The translations under genes were made by a program, and so were the position numbers. Below, in pieces: positions 6,243-15,506 of a stretch of DNA of 64,000 nucleotides. Position 1 is the first letter of the stretch. Every line of letters starts with the position of its first letter. Origin of the DNA: Celeribacter sp. PS-C1. Lineage in GTDB: Bacteria; Pseudomonadota; Alphaproteobacteria; Rhodobacterales; Rhodobacteraceae. The DNA lies in assembly GCF_019429625.1 (NCBI RefSeq), contig NZ_JAHXRW010000008.1, positions 62,001 to 126,000 of the forward strand, given 5' to 3'. Below the pieces are notes generated by a model. It was not told where the DNA came from. It searched no databases and saw nothing but the letters and a program-made list of their open reading frames with translations.

Positions 6243-6638
6243 TCAGCTCAGCCCGACAAGGACGCGCAACAGGTCGGATCGTCGGAGCATTCCGACGAAC
6301 TGCTCCCCGTCAAGAACGGGGAAAACACGATGCGGATGGTTGAGAAAGGCTTCTGCAGCGGTGGCGATATCTGCAGTTGCGGAAAGCGTCATCACGTCGA
6401 CCGTCATGAAATCCGCAACCGTGCCTTTCCATTCCTGATAATAACTTGCGTTCAGGGCGGGCCGAAAACAGTCTTTCTGGCTCAGAATGCCTTGCAGCAC
6501 ACCGCCTTCATCCAGGACGGCCCCCGCCGCACCGCGCTCCTCGATCAGCAAAGCTACAGCGCGCCGAATGGGCATCTCGGGCGTCAGCACAGGAAGATCA
6601 TCGCGCACAATATCTCTAAGGGTCTGCACAGGGCTCAT
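6243..6638 (-). CDS. CBS-domain-pair protein in the nqr operon
   Basis: A 131-residue protein consisting almost entirely of two CBS domains (about residues 8-62 and 72-131). The second domain shows the usual end HRVFPVLDGEQFVGMLRRSDLL. CBS pairs commonly bind adenine nucleotides and regulate an attached or neighbouring enzyme or channel. The start at 6638 follows GGAGGA and overlaps the nqrM stop by four bases (ATGA), so it is the last gene of the nqr operon. An energy-status sensor for the Nqr complex is a plausible inference, not established. Confidence 0.82.
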   Translation of the reverse strand: MSPVQTLRDIVRDDLPVLTPEMPIRRAVALLIEERGAAGAVLDEGGVLQGILSQKDCFRPALNASYYQEWKGTVADFMTVDVMTLSATADIATAAEAFLNHPHRVFPVLDGEQFVGMLRRSDLLRVLVGLS

Positions 6639-6802
6639 GTTTGCTCCTCCGCGTGTTTGTGCGGGCAACCTTCACAGGCGACATCTTTGAGACAGGCCAT
6701 GCCGCCACAAGAGCCCTTGACCGGACCGCGCCCGAACAGAGAGCCGAGAGCGAGCCCTCCGACCGCAAAGAGAATGATGAGAAGGCCGAGGACAAGTTCC
6801 AT
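6635..6802 (-). CDS. nqrM: NqrM-type Nqr maturation protein (four-cysteine membrane protein)
   Basis: A 55-residue protein with one N-terminal membrane helix (about residues 3-23) and a cytoplasmic tail containing four cysteines at 32, 37, 43 and 46 (CGGMACLKDVACEGC). That is the pattern of NqrM (DUF539), which in Vibrio is needed to assemble the iron centre held by NqrD and NqrE. It is slightly shorter than Vibrio NqrM. The start at 6802 is preceded by GGGAGAAG. It lies ten bases after apbE and overlaps the CBS gene by four. Confidence 0.87.
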   Translation of the reverse strand: MELVLGLLIILFAVGGLALGSLFGRGPVKGSCGGMACLKDVACEGCPHKHAEEQT

Positions 6803-6812
6803 ATCTTCTCCC

Positions 6813-7781
6813 TTATAGCATATGGCGATCAAAATCGCCTGTGGTGGTCGCGGAAAGACCGGTGTCCATTGCGAACAGGAACAGGGCCGAAAGCCCATTT
6901 TGACGCGCCACGTCAGGCCCCTGATCCGCGGCGGCCATCAAAGCGGTGGCCCAACCGTCTGCGATCATCGCGTCTGGCGCCAACACTGAGACCGACACAG
7001 CCCCGCCCGCCACAGGTCTGGCCCGGTGCGGATCTATGATGTGGCTGTAAACATGATCGCCCAAGCTATAGCTTTGCGCCCGCAGACCCGATGTTGCGAC
7101 GGAGAAGCCGGACGGCAGACGCAGTCCTGCGGCGGGGCTTAGCGCTCCGATCCGTGGATCCTCGACAGCAACGTGCCACGCTCTCCCCGACGGGTGCTGC
7201 CCGCGACTTTTCAACTCGCCGCCCAAATCGATTAGGACGTCTCGAAGACCGGCCTCCATGAAATAGCTGTCCACGAGATCGAGCGCGCGTCCCTTCGCAA
7301 TCCCGCACAGGTCAATCGTCAATCCCGAAATGTCCTTGCGCAACTGATCGCCATCTGTCGCGAGGGCTGTCCATGCCCCGGATACGCCAGTAATCCGGCC
7401 AAATCCCCATTGCGACACCAAGGGGCCAACCGTGGGGTCGAACCGGCCACCGCTCTCGCGCGCGATTTTCAATGCGGCACGCGTCACAAAGGCCGTTTCC
7501 CCGGACACACGGCAGGCATCGGCAGTTCGGTTGAACCGAGACACATCACTGTCCTGACGCCACGGCGACATCTGGGCATCCACTTTGGCCAAAATTCGGT
7601 CGATGGCCGCACGATGCGGCTCAAGCGGTACATCAGAGGGCGCGGTCACGCGCCAATGGCTCGCGAAGGCGCGGCCCTCCATGCTGTGCGTCGGAGCAAG
7701 ACTGTTTGCCTCCGCCACGCCCGCATAAAGCGTGGCGCCGCTGAGGGCGATCATCTGACGGCGGGTAAAATCACGGCGCAT
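6813..7781 (-). CDS. apbE: FAD:protein FMN transferase ApbE
   Basis: A 322-residue ApbE-family flavin transferase that attaches FMN to a threonine in S/T-GAT sites of partner proteins outside the cytoplasmic membrane face. The N-terminal RRDFTRRQMIALSGATLYAG, with an Arg-Arg pair followed by a hydrophobic stretch, looks like a Tat or Sec export signal. Family motifs include SGGRFDPTVGPLV (about 113-125), LIDLGGE, SHIIDP and DAMIADGWATALM. It follows nqrF by three bases. The clear target here is the site in NqrC; NqrB lacks one. Confidence 0.93.
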   Translation of the reverse strand: MRRDFTRRQMIALSGATLYAGVAEANSLAPTHSMEGRAFASHWRVTAPSDVPLEPHRAAIDRILAKVDAQMSPWRQDSDVSRFNRTADACRVSGETAFVTRAALKIARESGGRFDPTVGPLVSQWGFGRITGVSGAWTALATDGDQLRKDISGLTIDLCGIAKGRALDLVDSYFMEAGLRDVLIDLGGELKSRGQHPSGRAWHVAVEDPRIGALSPAAGLRLPSGFSVATSGLRAQSYSLGDHVYSHIIDPHRARPVAGGAVSVSVLAPDAMIADGWATALMAAADQGPDVARQNGLSALFLFAMDTGLSATTTGDFDRHML

Positions 7782-7784
7782 GGT

Positions 7785-9005
7785 TCAACCTCCGAAGTCA
7801 TCATTATAGATGGACTCTGGTTCGACGCCCAGTTTGGCGAGCGTGTTCAGGACCGCCGACATCATGACCGGCGGACCGCAGAGATAATATTCGCAATTCT
7901 CTGGCGCGGGATGCTTGGACAGGGCCGCCCGCACGGTATCGTGGATAAATCCGGTTTCCCCGCGCCACCGGTCCCCCGGCGCCGGGTCCGACAGTGCCGG
8001 GGTCCATGCAAAATTGGGGTGTTCCCTAGCAATCGCCTCGAATTCCTCGACATAGAACAGGTCCGCCGCTGAGCGCGCACCATAGAAATATCGCATCTTG
8101 CGGGTCGTTCCTTTGCCGATCTGTTCGTGGATCATGGCCCGCAGAGGCGCCATGCCAACGCCGCCTCCGATAAAGACCATATCACGCTCTGTCGGTTGAA
8201 CGTGGAACTCACCGAAGGGACCGGATGCGGCCACTTCGGCCCCCGGCTTCAGGGAGAAAAGCCACGACGAGACCACTCCCGGCGCGATGTCATGTTCTTT
8301 GCCAGCAGGTGGAACGGCGAGGCGGATATTGAACACAGCCTGCCCGACATTAGCTGGCGTGTTGGCGATGGAATAGGCGCGCGTGACGGGCTGGTCTGAC
8401 GAGGCTTGCATCGTTGGCCAATCGGCCAAGTCCCATGTCTGCGAAAAGGCCGGCTCTACGTCGATGTCCGCGAAGTCGAGCCGGTAGGCCGGCGCGGTCA
8501 ACTGCATAAAGCCGCCTGCCCTGAACGCAAACGGCTGCTCTGGCGGAAGTTCGAGAACCAATTCCCGGATCAGCGGCGCCAGCTGTCTGTTCGACACAAC
8601 GCGGCAGGTAAACCCAGTCGCTCCGAGGAACTCTTGCGGCACCGTGACACGGCACGGCCCACGCAGAGTTGTTTGACAAGCCAGTCTCACATGGGCCTTG
8701 CGCTCTGCCGCAGACAATATGCCTTTTTCCGTAGCGATCGCGGTGCCAGCCCCCTCCCCGTCTACAACGACGCGGCACAACCCACAGGTGCCAGAGCCGC
8801 CGCAGGCCGCAGGGATACCAATGCCCGAGCGGTGCAGAACGCCCAAAAGCTTTTCCCCACGCGCAACATCGAGTTTTTCAGTGTCGTTGACCGTGATCTG
8901 AAGCGCTTCGGCTGGAACAAGCTTTTGCCGCGTCAGAAGCAAGACGACGGTCAGGGCGATGATCAGCCCAACGATGATGAAGACACCAAGAACAATCTCC
9001 GTCAT
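7785..9005 (-). CDS. nqrF: Na+-translocating NADH:quinone reductase subunit F
   Basis: A 406-residue subunit, close to the usual 407, that takes electrons from NADH. A membrane helix (about residues 4-24) leads into a 2Fe-2S ferredoxin domain with Cys68, Cys74, Cys77 and Cys110 (ACGGSGTCGLC). An FAD domain with RAYSIANTP and an NADH-binding domain with FIGGGVGMAPLRAMI follow. The C-terminus YNDDFGG is characteristic. It overlaps nqrE by four bases. All cofactor residues that can be checked by eye are present. Confidence 0.97.
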   Translation of the reverse strand: MTEIVLGVFIIVGLIIALTVVLLLTRQKLVPAEALQITVNDTEKLDVARGEKLLGVLHRSGIGIPAACGGSGTCGLCRVVVDGEGAGTAIATEKGILSAAERKAHVRLACQTTLRGPCRVTVPQEFLGATGFTCRVVSNRQLAPLIRELVLELPPEQPFAFRAGGFMQLTAPAYRLDFADIDVEPAFSQTWDLADWPTMQASSDQPVTRAYSIANTPANVGQAVFNIRLAVPPAGKEHDIAPGVVSSWLFSLKPGAEVAASGPFGEFHVQPTERDMVFIGGGVGMAPLRAMIHEQIGKGTTRKMRYFYGARSAADLFYVEEFEAIAREHPNFAWTPALSDPAPGDRWRGETGFIHDTVRAALSKHPAPENCEYYLCGPPVMMSAVLNTLAKLGVEPESIYNDDFGG

Positions 9006-9613
9006 GACGCCACCATCTGGGCAAAGGCAGAAAAGCCGAGAGACATCATACCGGCGAGGAGGAACGTGATGCCCAAACCGCGCAGCGCTTCAGGGACATG
9101 CGCATAGGCCAACCGCGCGCGGATCGCTCCGAGCATGACGACAGAGGTGGCAAAACCCGTTCCCGACCCAAGGCCGAACACAGCAGACTCGACGAGCGTA
9201 AAGCTTCGCTCCACCATGAACAGGCTTCCGGCAAGGATGGCACATTGGACCGTCAGCAGAGGCAGAAAGACCCCAAAAGAGGCGTAGATCGCAGGGAAAA
9301 ACCGGTCCAGCACCATTTCCAGCAACTGAACCGTGGCCGCAATGACGCCGATAAAGGCGATCAGTTTGAGGTAAGACAAATCCGTCTCCGGCAACCCTGC
9401 CCAAGCCCATGCCCCCGGCGCCAGAAGTGCCGAGTAGATCAGTTGATTGAGCGGCACTGTCACACCCATGACAGCGACGACCGCAATCCCGAGCCCCACA
9501 GCCGAGCCGGTTTTTCTGGACAGGGCGATAAAGGTGCAGAGGCCAAGGAACAGCGTGAGGGGCATATTCTCCACAAAGGCTGCACTCAGGAAGAGAGACA
9601 CCAGATCACTCAT
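9002..9613 (-). CDS. nqrE: Na+-translocating NADH:quinone reductase subunit E
   Basis: A 203-residue six-helix membrane subunit of the NqrDE/RnfAE family. Cys26 (LFLGLCTFIAL) and Cys124 (LTVQCAILAG) correspond to the cysteines that, with two in NqrD, hold an iron-sulphur centre inside the membrane. Length and motifs match the family. It overlaps both nqrD and nqrF by four bases, so it lies centrally in the operon. Nothing unusual was seen. Confidence 0.97.
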   Translation of the reverse strand: MSDLVSLFLSAAFVENMPLTLFLGLCTFIALSRKTGSAVGLGIAVVAVMGVTVPLNQLIYSALLAPGAWAWAGLPETDLSYLKLIAFIGVIAATVQLLEMVLDRFFPAIYASFGVFLPLLTVQCAILAGSLFMVERSFTLVESAVFGLGSGTGFATSVVMLGAIRARLAYAHVPEALRGLGITFLLAGMMSLGFSAFAQMVAS

Positions 9614-10275
9614 GACAGGTCCTCCGGCTTGTCCGGTGACAACAACTCAAGGGTCTCGGTCTGATCCGGCAAGAGCGTGCGAAGGATCCAAACCAATCCG
9701 CCCAAAAGAAAGAACGCCGATGGCGCCAAGAGCATTAGGCTCAGAGGAGTAAACCACCCGCCCTGGTCGACGGTCTGAAATACCTGCAACCCGAGAAGAG
9801 ATCCGGCGCCAAAGAGTTCGCGCACGGAGCCAATCACAACCAGAACGAGGGAGTAACCGAGCCCATTGCCCAACGCATCCACCATGGACCGTCCCGGTGG
9901 ATTATGACGGGAAAACGACTCGGTGCGCCCGAGCACAAGACAGTTCGTGGTGATCAGGCTGACAAAGACCGAAAGCTTTTGACTGATTTCAAAAAGATAG
10001 GCCTGAAGAATTTGATCGATCACGATCACAAGCGAGGCCACGATCACGATCTGGACGATCAGGCGAATTGAGCCCGGGATATGGTGGCGGATCAGGCTAA
10101 TTAGACCGGCAGACATGACCAAGACCGCAGTCAGTGCTGCCGACATGGTCAAGGCCGTCGCAACAGAGGTCGTCACCGCCAAAGCTGAGCAAATCCCGAG
10201 AATCTGAAGTGTCACCGGGTTTTGGTGAACCAGAGGATCAGTGAGAGTGCTCCAAAGGCTTGCGCGGGCGGGCAT
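9610..10275 (-). CDS. nqrD: Na+-translocating NADH:quinone reductase subunit D
   Basis: A 221-residue polytopic membrane subunit. Cys29 (LQILGICSALAVT) and Cys112 (ITTNCLVLGR) lie at exactly the positions known from Vibrio NqrD as ligands of the intramembrane iron centre. NPVTLQILGICSALAVTTS is the family opening. The C-terminal arm after about residue 200 is longer than in Vibrio by roughly ten residues. It starts three bases after nqrC ends and overlaps nqrE by four. Confidence 0.97.
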   Translation of the reverse strand: MPARASLWSTLTDPLVHQNPVTLQILGICSALAVTTSVATALTMSAALTAVLVMSAGLISLIRHHIPGSIRLIVQIVIVASLVIVIDQILQAYLFEISQKLSVFVSLITTNCLVLGRTESFSRHNPPGRSMVDALGNGLGYSLVLVVIGSVRELFGAGSLLGLQVFQTVDQGGWFTPLSLMLLAPSAFFLLGGLVWILRTLLPDQTETLELLSPDKPEDLS

Positions 10276-10278
10276 GGT

Positions 10279-11079
10279 TCAAAACTCCCCGCGCTGGATG
10301 GCGTCGATCAGAGGGCCATAGCCATCGGGACCAAGCCAAAAGCGCATAATGCGCGTGACGGCGCTTGAGGTGCGCGTCGCCCCCGTGATGCCGTCCACCT
10401 CGAACTCACTGCTCGCACGGCCTTTGGCGACCGCAAAGCGGACTGCACCGCTTGCGTCCGCGATCTCTTTTCCGCGCCATTGGGACAACCACGCAGGTTC
10501 TTCGATACGCCCCCCCAGACCGGGCGTTTCGGATTGGCCCAAAACGGCCAGTCCCGCGATGGTGTTCATATCCGCCCTGAGCGCGAGAATTGCATCAATC
10601 GGCCCGACGTAGCCGGCACCGCTGATTGGCAGCAGCGCGAGAGAAATTTCACCATCGGCGCCACGCAGGAAATAGACCTGCGCATAGTCCGGACGTTGTC
10701 CGAGGCCAGCAATGTCCTGCCCCTCGGACAATCCCGTCCAATTCGCATTGTCCTCCAGCGCGACAGAGAGTGTCGCGGGCGTGACCTCGGTCGCCGCCTT
10801 CGCTTCGGTGAGATCGACAACGACTGTGGACAGGGAACCGCCCTCAGCCGCCAAAAGCTCGGACATGCCGGGGATGCCTGCGATCAGCCCCTCCAGACGT
10901 GCCTGTTGCTCGGCGGCGCGGTTGGCGGCCTGGATCGGGCGCAAGATGACGGTCGCCCCACTGACCCCGAGGGCGCAGATGGCCGAGACCAGAAACGCCA
11001 TAACCAAAGTTTTAGTCCGACTTTCATTCGGCAGGGCAAGGAGTTTCCGCCACACGGTGATCGGGTTCATGTCAGCCAT
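10279..11079 (-). CDS. nqrC: Na+-translocating NADH:quinone reductase subunit C
   Basis: A 266-residue subunit with one N-terminal membrane helix (about residues 25-45) and a periplasmic FMN-binding domain. The flavinylation site DGITGATRTSS is intact, with the FMN-bearing threonine at about residue 235, and ETPGLGGRI precedes it as in the family. It is therefore a normal ApbE target. It overlaps the end of nqrB by eight bases and is followed by nqrD after three. Sequence between residues 60 and 130 is divergent. Confidence 0.95.
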   Translation of the reverse strand: MADMNPITVWRKLLALPNESRTKTLVMAFLVSAICALGVSGATVILRPIQAANRAAEQQARLEGLIAGIPGMSELLAAEGGSLSTVVVDLTEAKAATEVTPATLSVALEDNANWTGLSEGQDIAGLGQRPDYAQVYFLRGADGEISLALLPISGAGYVGPIDAILALRADMNTIAGLAVLGQSETPGLGGRIEEPAWLSQWRGKEIADASGAVRFAVAKGRASSEFEVDGITGATRTSSAVTRIMRFWLGPDGYGPLIDAIQRGEF

Positions 11080-11851
11080 GACGTTTTCTCCTTCGTCTTA
11101 CCCAGAGCGCAAGCGCAGCCTCGTCAAAGATTGGCGCAAACAAAGACGCCAAAAAGGCGGCAGAGACGGCCATTTGCACGGGCGCAGCCCCTTCCCATTC
11201 ATACGCGAAGAGGACGACAAATCCTCCGTAAGCCCCTCCGTAAAGCCAGCGACCGAGCGAGGTAGAAGCGCCCGCGACAGGATCGGTGACCAGAAGCGCC
11301 AGCACCAAAACAGCCGTGGGCAAAATCACAGAGATCGCCGGATCACCGCCGTAATATGCGATCCCCAGTGCCACAAAAGCCGCAAAGATCACGCGCATGG
11401 ACAGAATTCCGAACATCGCGCCGATCCCCAATGCGGGAAGCGCCGCCCAGATCACAGGCGCGACGAACTCGGGCCACGGCTCAGCGGGAAAGCCAAAGCC
11501 AAGGAAGGCGATCGTGACTGTTGCCGGATTGAGCACATTACGCCCCCAACCTCCAAAAACCAGCTCCGCCGCCACCGTGCCGAAACTGATGCCAAGAGCC
11601 AATCGGATCAAACCCAAATCTTCGGGTGCAAGCATGGCGACTGCGATTGCAGACAGTGCACCTGCAAGGGAGGGCGGCTGGGCCCGTGCCAGCATGAAGA
11701 CCATATGCCAAAGGCCGGAGATGATCAGGGTGAGGGCGAGCCGTCCGATCGCCTCGACGCCGCCGAACCAAAGCCACGTCAGCACCATCGGCATACTTGC
11801 CATGAGCAAGAGCGCCGCGACCATCTCGCGATCCCACATCCCGCGCCTCAT
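11072..11851 (-). CDS. nqrB: Short NqrB-like subunit lacking the FMN-attachment motif
   Basis: A 259-residue polytopic membrane protein in the nqrB position, overlapping nqrA by four bases and nqrC by eight. Family blocks are visible: GISFGTVAAELVFGGWGRN with LNPATVTIAFLGFGFP (about 88-124), LLVTDPVAGASTSLGRWLYG (about 190-210) and LFAPIFDE near the end. Usual NqrB proteins are about 410 residues. Missing here are the N-terminal extension, the loop after the first helix, and the segment after the NPA block that normally carries the VDGYSGAT flavinylation site and GSxGETS. The frame is uninterrupted, so this looks like a compact variant and not a broken gene. Confidence 0.85.
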   Translation of the reverse strand: MRRGMWDREMVAALLLMASMPMVLTWLWFGGVEAIGRLALTLIISGLWHMVFMLARAQPPSLAGALSAIAVAMLAPEDLGLIRLALGISFGTVAAELVFGGWGRNVLNPATVTIAFLGFGFPAEPWPEFVAPVIWAALPALGIGAMFGILSMRVIFAAFVALGIAYYGGDPAISVILPTAVLVLALLVTDPVAGASTSLGRWLYGGAYGGFVVLFAYEWEGAAPVQMAVSAAFLASLFAPIFDEAALALWVRRRRKRHG

Positions 11852-13131
11852 GCGACACCTTCCTCTTCTTCGATGCGGTCCAAAATCGCGCGCACCTGAG
11901 TCATGAGACGCGGCCGCGCGCCCGTTGCATAATCTGCGAGTGCCAAATCTTCTTCCAAGAGGGACAAACCGCCGAGACGCGTGAACCCCTCCACATCTCC
12001 GGACGCCAGAACGCGGACCAATGCAGCAGCGGGAAGCACACCGCCGAACGCGAGATCGAGCGCAGCAGTCGGAATGATCGGCGCACGCCGCGAGGCATGG
12101 TCGAGCGCTTCGTTAAACCAGTGACGGTTCTTTGAGGTTGTGTCGCGTTTAAGAACAGTGACCTGCCGGTCCCGAAGCGACAACCAATGCGCAGGCCGCC
12201 CGTCAAGCGACGAGCCCGACAAGACCGCATGAGGTCCCGGGCGCAGAATTGGCTGGCACAACCCGCGCAAATCTGCGCCCGGCTGGCACTCGACGCGTTT
12301 CGCCTCCCTGAGCGCATCGCCCGAGATAGAGACCACGCGCGTCGCAGGAACATACCCATTCTCCAGAAAAGCCCCGATATCCGCGACATCCTCGGCATGA
12401 ATATCCCAAACGGATGCGTCGACCCGTGCCGGCATATGGCGATGGATCATCAACCCTGAAAGCCCGTTCGGATGCGTCCGGCCCGTTAAAATGCGGCTGA
12501 CACCTGCCGGGGGCGCACCCGTATAAGATGTCGCCTCCGCCTGACACAGGAAAATCTTCGCATCCGTCAGGCGCGAAAGAGCATCAAGACCGCGCGAGAA
12601 CTCCTCTTCACGACTCCACAGCCGCAGGAGCGGATCTGGCGCGTCAGGCCGACTGTCGGTCGCCATCACGAAAATCGCGGCGGGGATCGCGCCAGGTTTT
12701 GGCACGCGACCGAAAGGGCGGCTCCGCAACATCCGCCACAAGCCAGACATCTGCAGGACCCTGCGCAACTCGTCCACATCTTGGCCCGCGAGAGACACAT
12801 CAAAGGAATAGCGATCGCCACCGGCGTCATGAAACAGCACCAATTGCGACAACCGATGGCCCGGTCGAAGATCAATTTTCGCGACACGTCCCGCCATTGG
12901 GGCCGTCAGATACATATCCGGCATGGCCCGCACTCTCAGAAGAGGCTGCCCTTGCGCGACGCTCTCGCCGTCCCCGACCAAAGGCTCGACCCGCAACTCC
13001 TCCCCATGAGCTGGCGTGATCGCGGCTTCGTCTGTGATGTGGCGCGCCGGGGCGTCGGGCTTTAGCGGCGGACCGACGCGGGGCACTATAAGTCCCGCAG
13101 TAAAAATTGAGCCAAACATCTCAACGTCCAT
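11848..13131 (-). CDS. nqrA: Na+-translocating NADH:quinone reductase subunit A
   Basis: A 427-residue peripheral cytoplasmic subunit, the first gene of the operon. Recognisable family blocks are TAPMAGRVAKIDLRPGHR (about 75-92), SGLWRMLRSRPFGRVP (about 129-144), THPNGLSGLMIH, RVVSISGDAL and LLEEDLALADY near the end. The last of these normally reads with two cysteines (LALCTFVCPG in Vibrio), which are replaced here. The segment between about residues 335 and 370 is also poorly conserved. It faces the pentaheme cytochrome gene across 122 bases and overlaps nqrB by four bases. Confidence 0.93.
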   Translation of the reverse strand: MDVEMFGSIFTAGLIVPRVGPPLKPDAPARHITDEAAITPAHGEELRVEPLVGDGESVAQGQPLLRVRAMPDMYLTAPMAGRVAKIDLRPGHRLSQLVLFHDAGGDRYSFDVSLAGQDVDELRRVLQMSGLWRMLRSRPFGRVPKPGAIPAAIFVMATDSRPDAPDPLLRLWSREEEFSRGLDALSRLTDAKIFLCQAEATSYTGAPPAGVSRILTGRTHPNGLSGLMIHRHMPARVDASVWDIHAEDVADIGAFLENGYVPATRVVSISGDALREAKRVECQPGADLRGLCQPILRPGPHAVLSGSSLDGRPAHWLSLRDRQVTVLKRDTTSKNRHWFNEALDHASRRAPIIPTAALDLAFGGVLPAAALVRVLASGDVEGFTRLGGLSLLEEDLALADYATGARPRLMTQVRAILDRIEEEEGVA

Positions 13132-13253: not shown

Positions 13254-14438
13254 ATGCCTTTCAAACATAAATTCTTTTTTTCACTCCTTGTTGGTTTTGC
13301 TGTCGCCGTCGGCCCCAGTATGGTGGCTGCACAAGATCAGGCCGAGGAGCCGGTCCGTGACATCGAGGAAATCGTCGAAGATCTCGAACTCTATGTAATG
13401 CCGGACGCCGGTCCATTCCGTCCTGACCAGATCGAGATCAAGAACAAATTGGCGATTGGCGAGTGGGCGCGATCCGGTCACGCCCTGTCGACGGCTGAGG
13501 CGTTCACCCATTGGGATGAAGAAGGCGAAGTGCCTGTCGCCTGTGCAACCTGTCACAGCGGGGCCGGATTTAGAGCCTTTTACGGCCTCGATGGAAGCGA
13601 TGCGGGAACAGTCGAGGCGCCTGTGCCAACCGGCGGGGTGGTCGATTGTGATACATGCCACAATCCGGGGCTGGCTGCCGTCGAAGAGGTCAAGTTCCCA
13701 AGCGGCCTGATGCATCCCATCGCACCCGGAGAGGCCTCCTGCCTCACATGCCACCAAGGTCGCGCCTCCGGACTGAACATCTCTGCGTCCGTCGCGGACA
13801 TGGCGCTGGACGACACGAATGTGGATTTGCGCTTTATCAATCCGCATTACGCTGTCGCGGCGTCGACATGGCTCGGCGGTTATGGCGGTTCTGGGTATCA
13901 CTACGATGGCAAAGATTATTCGGGCCGGTTCTTCCACGCGCGCCCCGTCGCCACCTGTGTGTCCTGTCACGATCCGCATAGCCTCGAGGTGTCGCAAAAC
14001 ACATGCATGAGCTGCCATGAAAACGGCGCACCGGATAGCATCCGCCTCTCACGCGTCAGCTATGATGGCAGCGGCAACCTCGACCAAGGGCTCCGCACCG
14101 ACGTGTCACATAACGCCGAACGGCTGATGGGGTTCATTCAAGACTATGCCGAGACGGTTGCGGGAACTGCGATCCTCTATGACGGGCATCAGTATCCCTA
14201 TTTCTTCGCTGACGCGAACAACGACGGTCAGATCGATATCAATGACGGGCGTTCGGTCGCCTACAACACATGGACACCGCGCCTGCTGAAAGCCGCTTAC
14301 AACTGGAAGTTCGTGACGACCGACAAAGGGGCCTTTGCCCACAATCCGCACTACGTGTTGGAACTGCTCTACGACTCGAGTGAAGACCTCGCGAACGCGC
14401 TTGGCCTCGATATCTTAGACACCGGAATGATGCGCTGA
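13254..14438 (+). CDS. Secreted pentaheme cytochrome c
   Basis: A 394-residue periplasmic multiheme cytochrome. A Sec signal peptide covers about residues 1-26 (cleavage after MVAA). Five CXXCH haem c sites lie at residues 97-101 (CATCH), 132-136 (CDTCH), 163-167 (CLTCH), 235-239 (CVSCH) and 251-255 (CMSCH), with further histidines available as distal ligands (H76, H154, H198, H228). A calcium-binding EF-hand-like loop, DANNDGQIDIND, lies at 320-331. The region after residue 260 has no haem site. I do not recognise a named family. It is divergent from nqrA, which suggests a role in periplasmic electron transfer linked to Nqr; this is inference. Confidence 0.9.
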   Translation: MPFKHKFFFSLLVGFAVAVGPSMVAAQDQAEEPVRDIEEIVEDLELYVMPDAGPFRPDQIEIKNKLAIGEWARSGHALSTAEAFTHWDEEGEVPVACATCHSGAGFRAFYGLDGSDAGTVEAPVPTGGVVDCDTCHNPGLAAVEEVKFPSGLMHPIAPGEASCLTCHQGRASGLNISASVADMALDDTNVDLRFINPHYAVAASTWLGGYGGSGYHYDGKDYSGRFFHARPVATCVSCHDPHSLEVSQNTCMSCHENGAPDSIRLSRVSYDGSGNLDQGLRTDVSHNAERLMGFIQDYAETVAGTAILYDGHQYPYFFADANNDGQIDINDGRSVAYNTWTPRLLKAAYNWKFVTTDKGAFAHNPHYVLELLYDSSEDLANALGLDILDTGMMR

Positions 14439-15416: not shown

Positions 15417-15506
15417 TGGCGGAGACGAAGGGATTCGAACCCTCGAGACGGTTTCCCGCCTACTCCCTTAGCAGGGGAGCGCCTTCGACCACTCGGCCAC
15501 GTCTCC
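15417..15506 (-). tRNA. tRNA-Ser (anticodon GCU)
   Basis: Read on the minus strand the sequence begins GGAGACGTGGCCGAGTGG and ends with CGTCTCC, discriminator G and an encoded CCA. The acceptor stem is a perfect seven-pair helix. The anticodon stem CTCCC/GGGAG encloses the loop CTGCTAA, giving anticodon GCT for AGC/AGU serine codons. The long variable arm typical of class II tRNAs follows, then the T loop GTTCGAATC. A plus-strand reading frame across it is spurious. Confidence 0.97.

Follow-up and report, generated by a model that had tools for sequence, protein, structure and literature searches.

In the canonical Nqr, the electron is returned via the FMN and the riboflavin of NqrB to ubiquinone, and the factor NqrM serves the cluster of NqrD and NqrE. 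According to passages of a 2025 review, the cofactors of NqrB, NqrC, NqrD and NqrE and of their Rnf counterparts are strictly conserved, and the RnfD structures tabulated there carry covalent FMN, none of them being archaeal as far as seen in that table (PMC12174285). Where Na+ crosses the membrane is disputed, the site being placed either in NqrB (PMC10643135) or in RnfA/RnfE, the equivalents of NqrE/NqrD (PMC11889175). For two-subunit Nqr/Rnf-like complexes, loss of the flavinylation threonine of NqrB/RnfD is in print in an excerpt of PMC10979944, and a one-way export of electrons from NAD(P)H is proposed in excerpts of PMC8238504, PMC10979944 and PMC11334425. A six-subunit Nqr without the NqrB flavin was not found in the literature searched, as judged from titles, the beginnings of abstracts and passages. 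The initial annotation of the locus reported here stated that no Nqr with this loss was described, which stands for the six-subunit Nqr in that literature and falls for the two-subunit complexes.

Here we analyse a window of 64,000 nucleotides from Celeribacter sp. PS-C1 (Rhodobacteraceae; assembly GCF_019429625.1, contig NZ_JAHXRW010000008.1, positions 62,001 to 126,000), to which all coordinates refer unless a locus label (L) precedes them. We hold, with a probability of about 60%, that its nqr operon represents a separate subtype of Nqr, in which the outward half of the circuit alone is retained and electrons go to a periplasmic cytochrome without returning to quinone.

The nqr operon and its short NqrB

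The run nqrA-nqrB-nqrC-nqrD-nqrE-nqrF-apbE-nqrM-CBS lies on the minus strand, from 13131 down to 6243, with nqrABCDEF as one six-gene run as in Na+-NQR. It comprises NqrA (11848..13131, 427 aa, shortened by about 22 residues), the short NqrB (11072..11851, 259 aa, ATG start, assigned by Pfam and by structure-sequence alignment), NqrC (10279..11079, 266 aa), NqrD (9610..10275, 221 aa), NqrE (9002..9613, 203 aa) and NqrF (7785..9005, 406 aa), NqrA being assigned by HMM and NqrC to NqrF by HMM and residue alignment. These are followed by the flavin transferase ApbE (6813..7781, 322 aa; HMM and Pfam), the maturation factor NqrM (6635..6802, start placed by eye; Pfam PF04400, 26.7 bits) and a CBS-domain protein as the last gene of the conserved run (6243..6638, start placed by eye; Pfam PF00571 and synteny). 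CBS, ApbE and NqrM are found beside canonical operons too, CBS being annotated near two canonical nqr loci. RnfB and the Fe-S protein RnfC, by which Rnf would be recognised, are absent; NqrF and NqrA stand instead.

The residues of the electron relay are kept in the window. NqrF has its 2Fe-2S cysteines and its FAD and NADH motifs, the membrane 2Fe-2S cysteines are present in NqrD (C29, C112) and NqrE (C26, C124), and a putative covalent FMN threonine is found in the TGAT of NqrC (T235) and is missing in NqrB. Among the other loci with a short NqrB (short loci below), counted on 54-58 rows per subunit with the window excluded, the TGAT threonine of NqrC is present in 55 of 58 rows (two have Ser and one a gap), the NqrD cysteines in 55/56 and 56/56, the NqrE cysteines in 54/54 at both positions, and the four NqrF cysteines in 52, 52, 52 and 53 of 54, the remainder being gaps. 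The earlier view that the NqrC site, the NqrD/E cysteines, ApbE and NqrM are retained is borne out at the level of sequence, and the NqrF cysteines can be added to it.

The nqrB gene had been described as encoding 259 residues in an intact frame with intact overlaps, and this is confirmed, with an overlap of 4 bases with nqrA (end 11848) and of 8 bases with nqrC (start 11079). Alignment to NqrB of known structure likewise confirms the claimed absence of the FMN-attachment site and of the GSxGE segment. Residues 36-134 correspond to 132-226 and residues 143-258 to 300-413 of the known NqrB (sequence match to 7xk3_B and 9ud3_B), and the alignment to the NCBIfam NqrB model begins at model position 92; therefore about 90-105 N-terminal and about 60 internal residues are absent. 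The internal gap spans Thr236, the FMN residue, together with the GSIGE segment, while the N-terminal amphipathic helices of the quinone site fall within the absent N-terminal stretch. The spacing from NPA to TDP is 81 residues in the window and 80-85 in 45 aligned short forms, compared with 138 and 142 in two full-length NqrBs. The protein satisfies Pfam PF03116 (63.7 bits, cut-off 27.7), which is its sole Pfam match, the fused NAD-binding domain PF00175 being absent. It stays far under the cut-offs of the NCBIfam nqrB models (equivalog TIGR01937, 74.7 against 349.9 required), and its best HMM is NqrB with 89.4 bits versus 39.3 for rnfD. The RefSeq entries of five annotated plasmids (L097-L101) name the short protein "RnfABCDGE type electron transport complex subunit D", so that the subtype is partly hidden from name searches. 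Single-chain structure models built from five-row alignments reached a pLDDT of 47 for NqrB and 29 for the cytochrome described below, and neither was used.

In V. cholerae, a region of NqrA is intertwined with the N-terminus of NqrB, according to a passage of PMC9325719. Of 59 short rows, 34 have 48 residues in the matching stretch of NqrA and the others mostly 43-53, a few rows being broken; the 8 canonical rows, in which one sequence appears twice, have 64-71. As read from these alignments, the shortening of NqrA is a loss that matches the missing N-terminus of NqrB. An Fe-S cluster in NqrA as a replacement for the flavin was rejected, as only one of its three cysteines is common (49/59 rows) and the other two vary.

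Distribution and selection of the short form

A survey of related genomes, as proposed in the initial annotation, shows the short form to be widespread. Near-identical or close copies occur in C. persicus (98% identity), C. litoreus (89%) and two Paracoccus MAGs (54%), and within Celeribacter the short form is present in 3 of the 20 genomes sampled. At E <= 1e-30, a profile of five short NqrB sequences matches 43 of 394 genomes of the family (393 genera), 29 of them with at least 284 bits and 14 with 108-149 bits, the latter including a contig-edge fragment (G194). G766 (locus L113), a weak profile match with an FMN-bearing NqrB, was moved to the canonical set, likewise G1111 (L115). The short form also occurs on plasmids of Nitratireductor and Shinella. 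Outside the family, G526 is the only short-type match when 385 genomes are sampled from the class and 398 from the phylum. Its cluster (L112) belongs to another alphaproteobacterial family; nqrA is unmatched in it, an ORF with four hemes lies upstream, and its branch is very long. Two plasmids show peculiarities: on Nitratireductor pOM-1 the annotation splits the ApbE gene of the cluster into two CDS lying side by side (L097:16062-17038), and in 14 kb of Vibrio campbellii plasmid unnamed1 an NqrB-like frame (L157:6497-) is the only match, with the other nqr subunits unmatched.

With a dN/dS of 0.069 between the window and C. litoreus, nqrB is under purifying selection; seven genes around it range from 0.03 to 0.12. 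The close copies and the nqrB ratio together show that the short NqrB is not due to chance or decay. A decaying or misassembled nqrB could be suspected from some short loci elsewhere, since L093 and L114 have split frames and a Tn3 element cuts L101 (P. aminophilus pAMI8), all apparently decaying short-Nqr clusters. In the window, however, all frames are open, the length of NqrB is conserved and the form recurs in 43 of 394 genomes; the frameshift or assembly deletion that the initial annotation had considered is not seen, and for the window the genome survey refutes this explanation, whose probability we put at practically nil.

A second, canonical operon of the genome itself (L019:5933-12986) encodes an ApbE of its own and an NqrB of full length with the SGAT site, and C. 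persicus likewise has a whole nqr operon of the canonical kind, whose full-length NqrB bears SGAT (L022). The second full-length nqrB that the initial annotation had thought might replace the short one does exist, then, but in a separate complete operon, and in 41 of 45 short-form genomes no full-length NqrB is found at E <= 1e-20, C. litoreus being one in which none turned up. The short form is therefore independent of a canonical copy, and replacement by the genome's own full-length NqrB is rejected for the subtype. NqrD and NqrE are the subunits nearest to this genome's canonical Nqr (53.5% identity each), followed by NqrF (44.1%), NqrB (34.0%), NqrA (31.7%) and NqrC (29.8%). In a tree of NqrD+E+F with 62 rows, one branch parts 53 short from 9 canonical rows with SH-aLRT 99; the tree is unrooted and from a quick method, has the short row L112 on a long branch and leaves out L157.

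A pentaheme cytochrome beside nqrA

Divergent from nqrA, on the plus strand of the window, is a gene for a pentaheme c-type cytochrome (13254..14438, 394 aa) with five CXXCH and, as judged by eye, an N-terminal signal peptide. Beyond the CXXCH ones, five extra His are invariant in 13 of 13 aligned cytochromes, so that bis-His ligation of all five hemes is feasible. A sequence search against solved structures gave weak matches only (best E 0.023). On the minus strand at 15417-15506 is a tRNA-Ser (gct).

Of 59 short loci, which include some from close relatives, 51 have a five-CXXCH ORF at a distance of up to about 3.5 kb from the start of nqrA, and two more have ORFs with four CXXCH, of which one is cut by the contig end and the other is a different c3-like protein. 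By the same test a multiheme ORF is absent in five of the 59 (L093, L095, L096, L101 and L114), and the remaining locus, L112, is the one in which nqrA is unmatched. Among the five are the two split and the one transposon-cut loci mentioned above, L096 has an EB_dh protein with one CXXCH, and L095 yielded none. In the canonical set, an ORF with at least three CXXCH near the nqrA start is found in none of nine loci (ten loci, nine with nqrA; the count leaves out L157, with its NqrB match only). The usual position of the pentaheme gene is taken by an ethylbenzene-dehydrogenase-like heme protein in L096 (1370-2752) and by a c3-like tetraheme protein in L088 (1172-1510); in L112 the four-heme ORF stands there.

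Across the first 40 short loci, the order cytochrome // nqrA-F-apbE-nqrM-CBS recurs with gaps, some of which fall at contig edges: the cytochrome is unmatched in L088, L095 and L096, ApbE in L081, L086, L089 and L090, NqrM in L063, L074, L086, L089 and L090, and CBS in L058, L086 and L090. In L085 the cytochrome gene and nqrA are on one strand. On the whole, the cytochrome family is present in 66 of 394 genomes of the family, namely 40 of the 43 with short NqrB versus 26 of 351 others. Fisher's test gives 2e-40 for the association, a value that ignores kinship, and 6 of the 49 short genomes entered via the cytochrome or a later profile, a bias of which the counts 40/43 and 26/351 are free. Among the 26 others, six have a short-Nqr cluster under the threshold of the first profile, fifteen have the ferric-reductase pairing described next and five have neither; altogether 20 of the 66 genomes have the cytochrome without an adjacent Nqr. 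Second copies occur in G082, as a sixteenth ferric-reductase pairing, and in G383, where the copy stands alone.

In G042 an ORF with nine CXXCH (L127:7488-9233; Pfam Cytochrome_cB, MtrC/F-like) adjoins the pentaheme gene and may hint at the acceptor. A plasmid of Pseudooceanicola algae has cytochrome c oxidase genes near the cytochrome gene, with an MFS transporter gene between (L099:2472-7957).

An alternative partner of the cytochrome

Sixteen loci that have no Nqr next to the cytochrome gene (L128-L132, L139, L142-L145, L147 and L149-L153) combine a cytochrome of the pentaheme family with a homologue of a protein made up of Ferric_reduct, FAD_binding_8 and NAD_binding_1 domains; Pfam was run on 6 of the 16, the others being assigned by homology, with one cut by a contig end and one split. 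Two unrelated membrane modules, both starting from cytosolic NAD(P)H, serve one cytochrome family, and this is the strongest hint that the flow would be outward. The flow could also be inward; a substrate-fed cytochrome would then reduce NqrC, and a gradient of Na+ or of protons would lift the electrons to NAD+ via NqrD/E and NqrF. Multiheme cytochromes are able to work in both directions, but ferric-reductase-like NAD(P)H modules, such as the other partner of this cytochrome, are a class associated with electron export. Rnf, for its part, is reversible according to a passage of PMC11889175. A recurring substrate oxidase, however, did not appear in the scan of shared neighbours, where the commonest were a transporter-like family (19 loci) and a Na+/H+ exchanger family (18), and we regard inward flow as very unlikely.

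A Na+/H+ exchanger homologue is located 3' of the cytochrome gene, at most 55 bases away and on the same strand, in 14 of the 89 loci searched, for example L064:12729-13886. Nqr genes are present in 13 of these 14, and the Na_H_Exchanger assignment comes from Pfam on 2 loci. In L146 the exchanger adjoins an Nqr-less cytochrome, and in the window no exchanger ORF follows the cytochrome gene.

Residues lost and kept in the short NqrB

We then consider the 45 aligned short NqrB rows, window included, as 32 tier-1 and 13 tier-2 rows. The column of the FMN residue Thr236 is a gap in 45/45, and no flavinylation motif D..[STA]GAT is found in the 57 short rows scanned. A relocated site was sought in DPVAGAS of the window, a sequence similar to an ApbE motif; it was rejected, being present in 4 of 57 other short rows (L020, L021, L085 and L086) and overlapping the riboflavin Asp.

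The ubiquinone contacts of NqrB include N156, F159 and G141, as given in a passage of PMC10643135. In tier 1, N156 is Ser in 32/32 and F159 is Gly or Ala in 28/32, while G141 is still Gly in 20/32; a ubiquinone site with the N-terminal amphipathic helices is not found in the short NqrB. Riboflavin ligands are reported at positions 162, 200, 203 and 346 in a passage of PMC9325719. The window has S/N/N/D there, so riboflavin may still bind, and tier 1 has N200 in 32/32, Asn (25) or His (7) at 203, Thr or Ser at 162 in 30/32 and D346 in 31/32. In tier 2 these positions are eroded, with Asn at 200 in 3/13, the exception being D346 (13/13).

The retained riboflavin positions mean that a shortened return path still has room. 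The complex would then still be an NADH:quinone oxidoreductase, in which the FMN of NqrC sits in the vacated pocket and passes electrons to the riboflavin of NqrB and on to quinone at a remodelled site, the cytochrome being a side branch. Tier 1 agrees with this in the riboflavin positions and in G141; moreover, a contact between NqrC-FMN and a non-covalent flavin is proposed for two-subunit Nqr/Rnf-like complexes in an excerpt of PMC10979944, and RnfD without amphipathic helices still carries electrons according to PMC12174285 as excerpted. The altered quinone contacts, the missing helices, the erosion of the tier-2 ligands other than D346 and the frequent linkage to the cytochrome speak against it, and we find it rather unlikely.

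The Na+ path proposed in NqrB runs over D52, E157, the GSIGE segment, F338 and F342, as described in a passage of PMC10643135. E157 is replaced throughout both tiers and GSIGE is absent; D52 is Asp in 16/32 tier-1 and 2/13 tier-2 rows, in columns that align unreliably; F338 becomes I/L/V/A and F342 becomes L/M in tier 1. With much of this path gone, N-terminal part included, the cytochrome might accept electrons while ions are no longer pumped, so that the complex would be an uncoupled supply of reductant to the periplasm, for example for detoxification or repair. Such a role would also agree with the ferric-reductase-type partner, which is not known to pump ions. However, tier 2 retains F338 in 10/13 and F342 in 12/13 rows, NqrD/E are strongly conserved, 14 loci have the exchanger gene right behind that of the cytochrome, and six subunits would seem costly for this purpose; we therefore consider it unlikely.

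Proposed electron path

Besides the loss in NqrB, the wider analysis adds what the initial annotation had missed, namely the lost N-terminus with the matching NqrA segment, the adjacent pentaheme gene and the wide spread of the form. That annotation offered that the complex either lacks one flavin or moves electrons by a different path; the FMN site is gone from NqrB as far as its sequence tells, and for the path we propose the following. NADH would be oxidised by NqrF with its FAD and 2Fe-2S cluster, and electrons would traverse the membrane via the 2Fe-2S cluster of NqrD/E to the periplasmic side, where the FMN of NqrC would receive them. From there they would pass to the pentaheme cytochrome c of the neighbouring gene and to a further acceptor, bypassing NqrB-FMN, riboflavin and ubiquinone. 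The short NqrB would serve as a docking scaffold, perhaps with riboflavin still bound. The first station (FMN) and much of the last site (quinone) of the NqrB return path are absent, and the neighbouring cytochrome probably takes the electrons that the canonical Nqr hands back to the membrane. In favour of this path we count the selective losses in NqrB and NqrA, the retained relay residues, the linkage of the cytochrome gene and its pairing elsewhere with another NAD(P)H module, the five extra His, the closeness of NqrD and NqrE to the canonical Nqr, the exchanger gene of 14 loci, the single branch in the tree and the purifying selection on nqrB. The riboflavin ligands kept in tier 1 are odd here, because NqrB would carry no electrons in this reading. 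Also against it stand the Gly retained at G141 in 20/32 tier-1 rows, the short loci that lack a multiheme ORF, the cytochromes with no adjacent Nqr, the presence of CBS, ApbE and NqrM beside canonical operons, the lack of an exchanger ORF in the window and the exchanger of L146.

If ions are coupled in NqrD/E, which has been proposed for Rnf, the term Na+-pumping NADH:cytochrome c oxidoreductase would describe the complex. We put this forward tentatively, giving a little under even odds to an enzyme that pumps Na+ while passing electrons from NADH to a periplasmic cytochrome c, in which the quinone pool is bypassed and the coupling of ions lies wholly in NqrD/E. As the subtype is without much of the NqrB path and has NqrD/E, its pumping would weigh directly on the dispute over the Na+ crossing site: if it pumps Na+, the proposed NqrB ion route is hardly the true one. 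It would then be a natural separation-of-function enzyme that tells whether Na+ is translocated by NqrB or by NqrD/E, and it may let biologists test where in Nqr sodium is pumped. On the whole, our results suggest a previously unrecognised respiratory entry, from NADH to a periplasmic cytochrome, in many Rhodobacteraceae.

Comparison with known systems

The subtype resembles Na+-NQR (V. cholerae, 7xk3/8a1t) in the order A-B-C-D-E-F, in ApbE and NqrM, and in the cofactor residues of NqrF, NqrD/E and NqrC. It differs from it by an NqrB from which the loop with the FMN threonine, the helices of the quinone site and much of the ion path proposed there are missing, by a shortened NqrA and by the cytochrome gene alongside; in its proposed working it would be a one-way relative of Nqr. 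With RnfD, the short NqrB has in common the lack of N-terminal amphipathic helices and the RefSeq name on five plasmids; unlike RnfD, its best HMM is NqrB and its neighbours are NqrA and NqrF, not RnfB/RnfC. The Rnf of Methanosarcina acetivorans is also a pump of Rnf/Nqr type with an extra multiheme c cytochrome, as described in passages of PMC12174285, but it is archaeal and has RnfB/RnfC. Finally, the Nqr/Rnf-like complexes, as far as the excerpted sources describe them, share with the subtype a Thr-less NqrB/RnfD homologue, an NqrC-like FMN protein and the proposed export of electrons, while they consist of two subunits with a fusion of NqrB and NAD domain and no NqrD/E pump, whereas the subtype has all six subunits.
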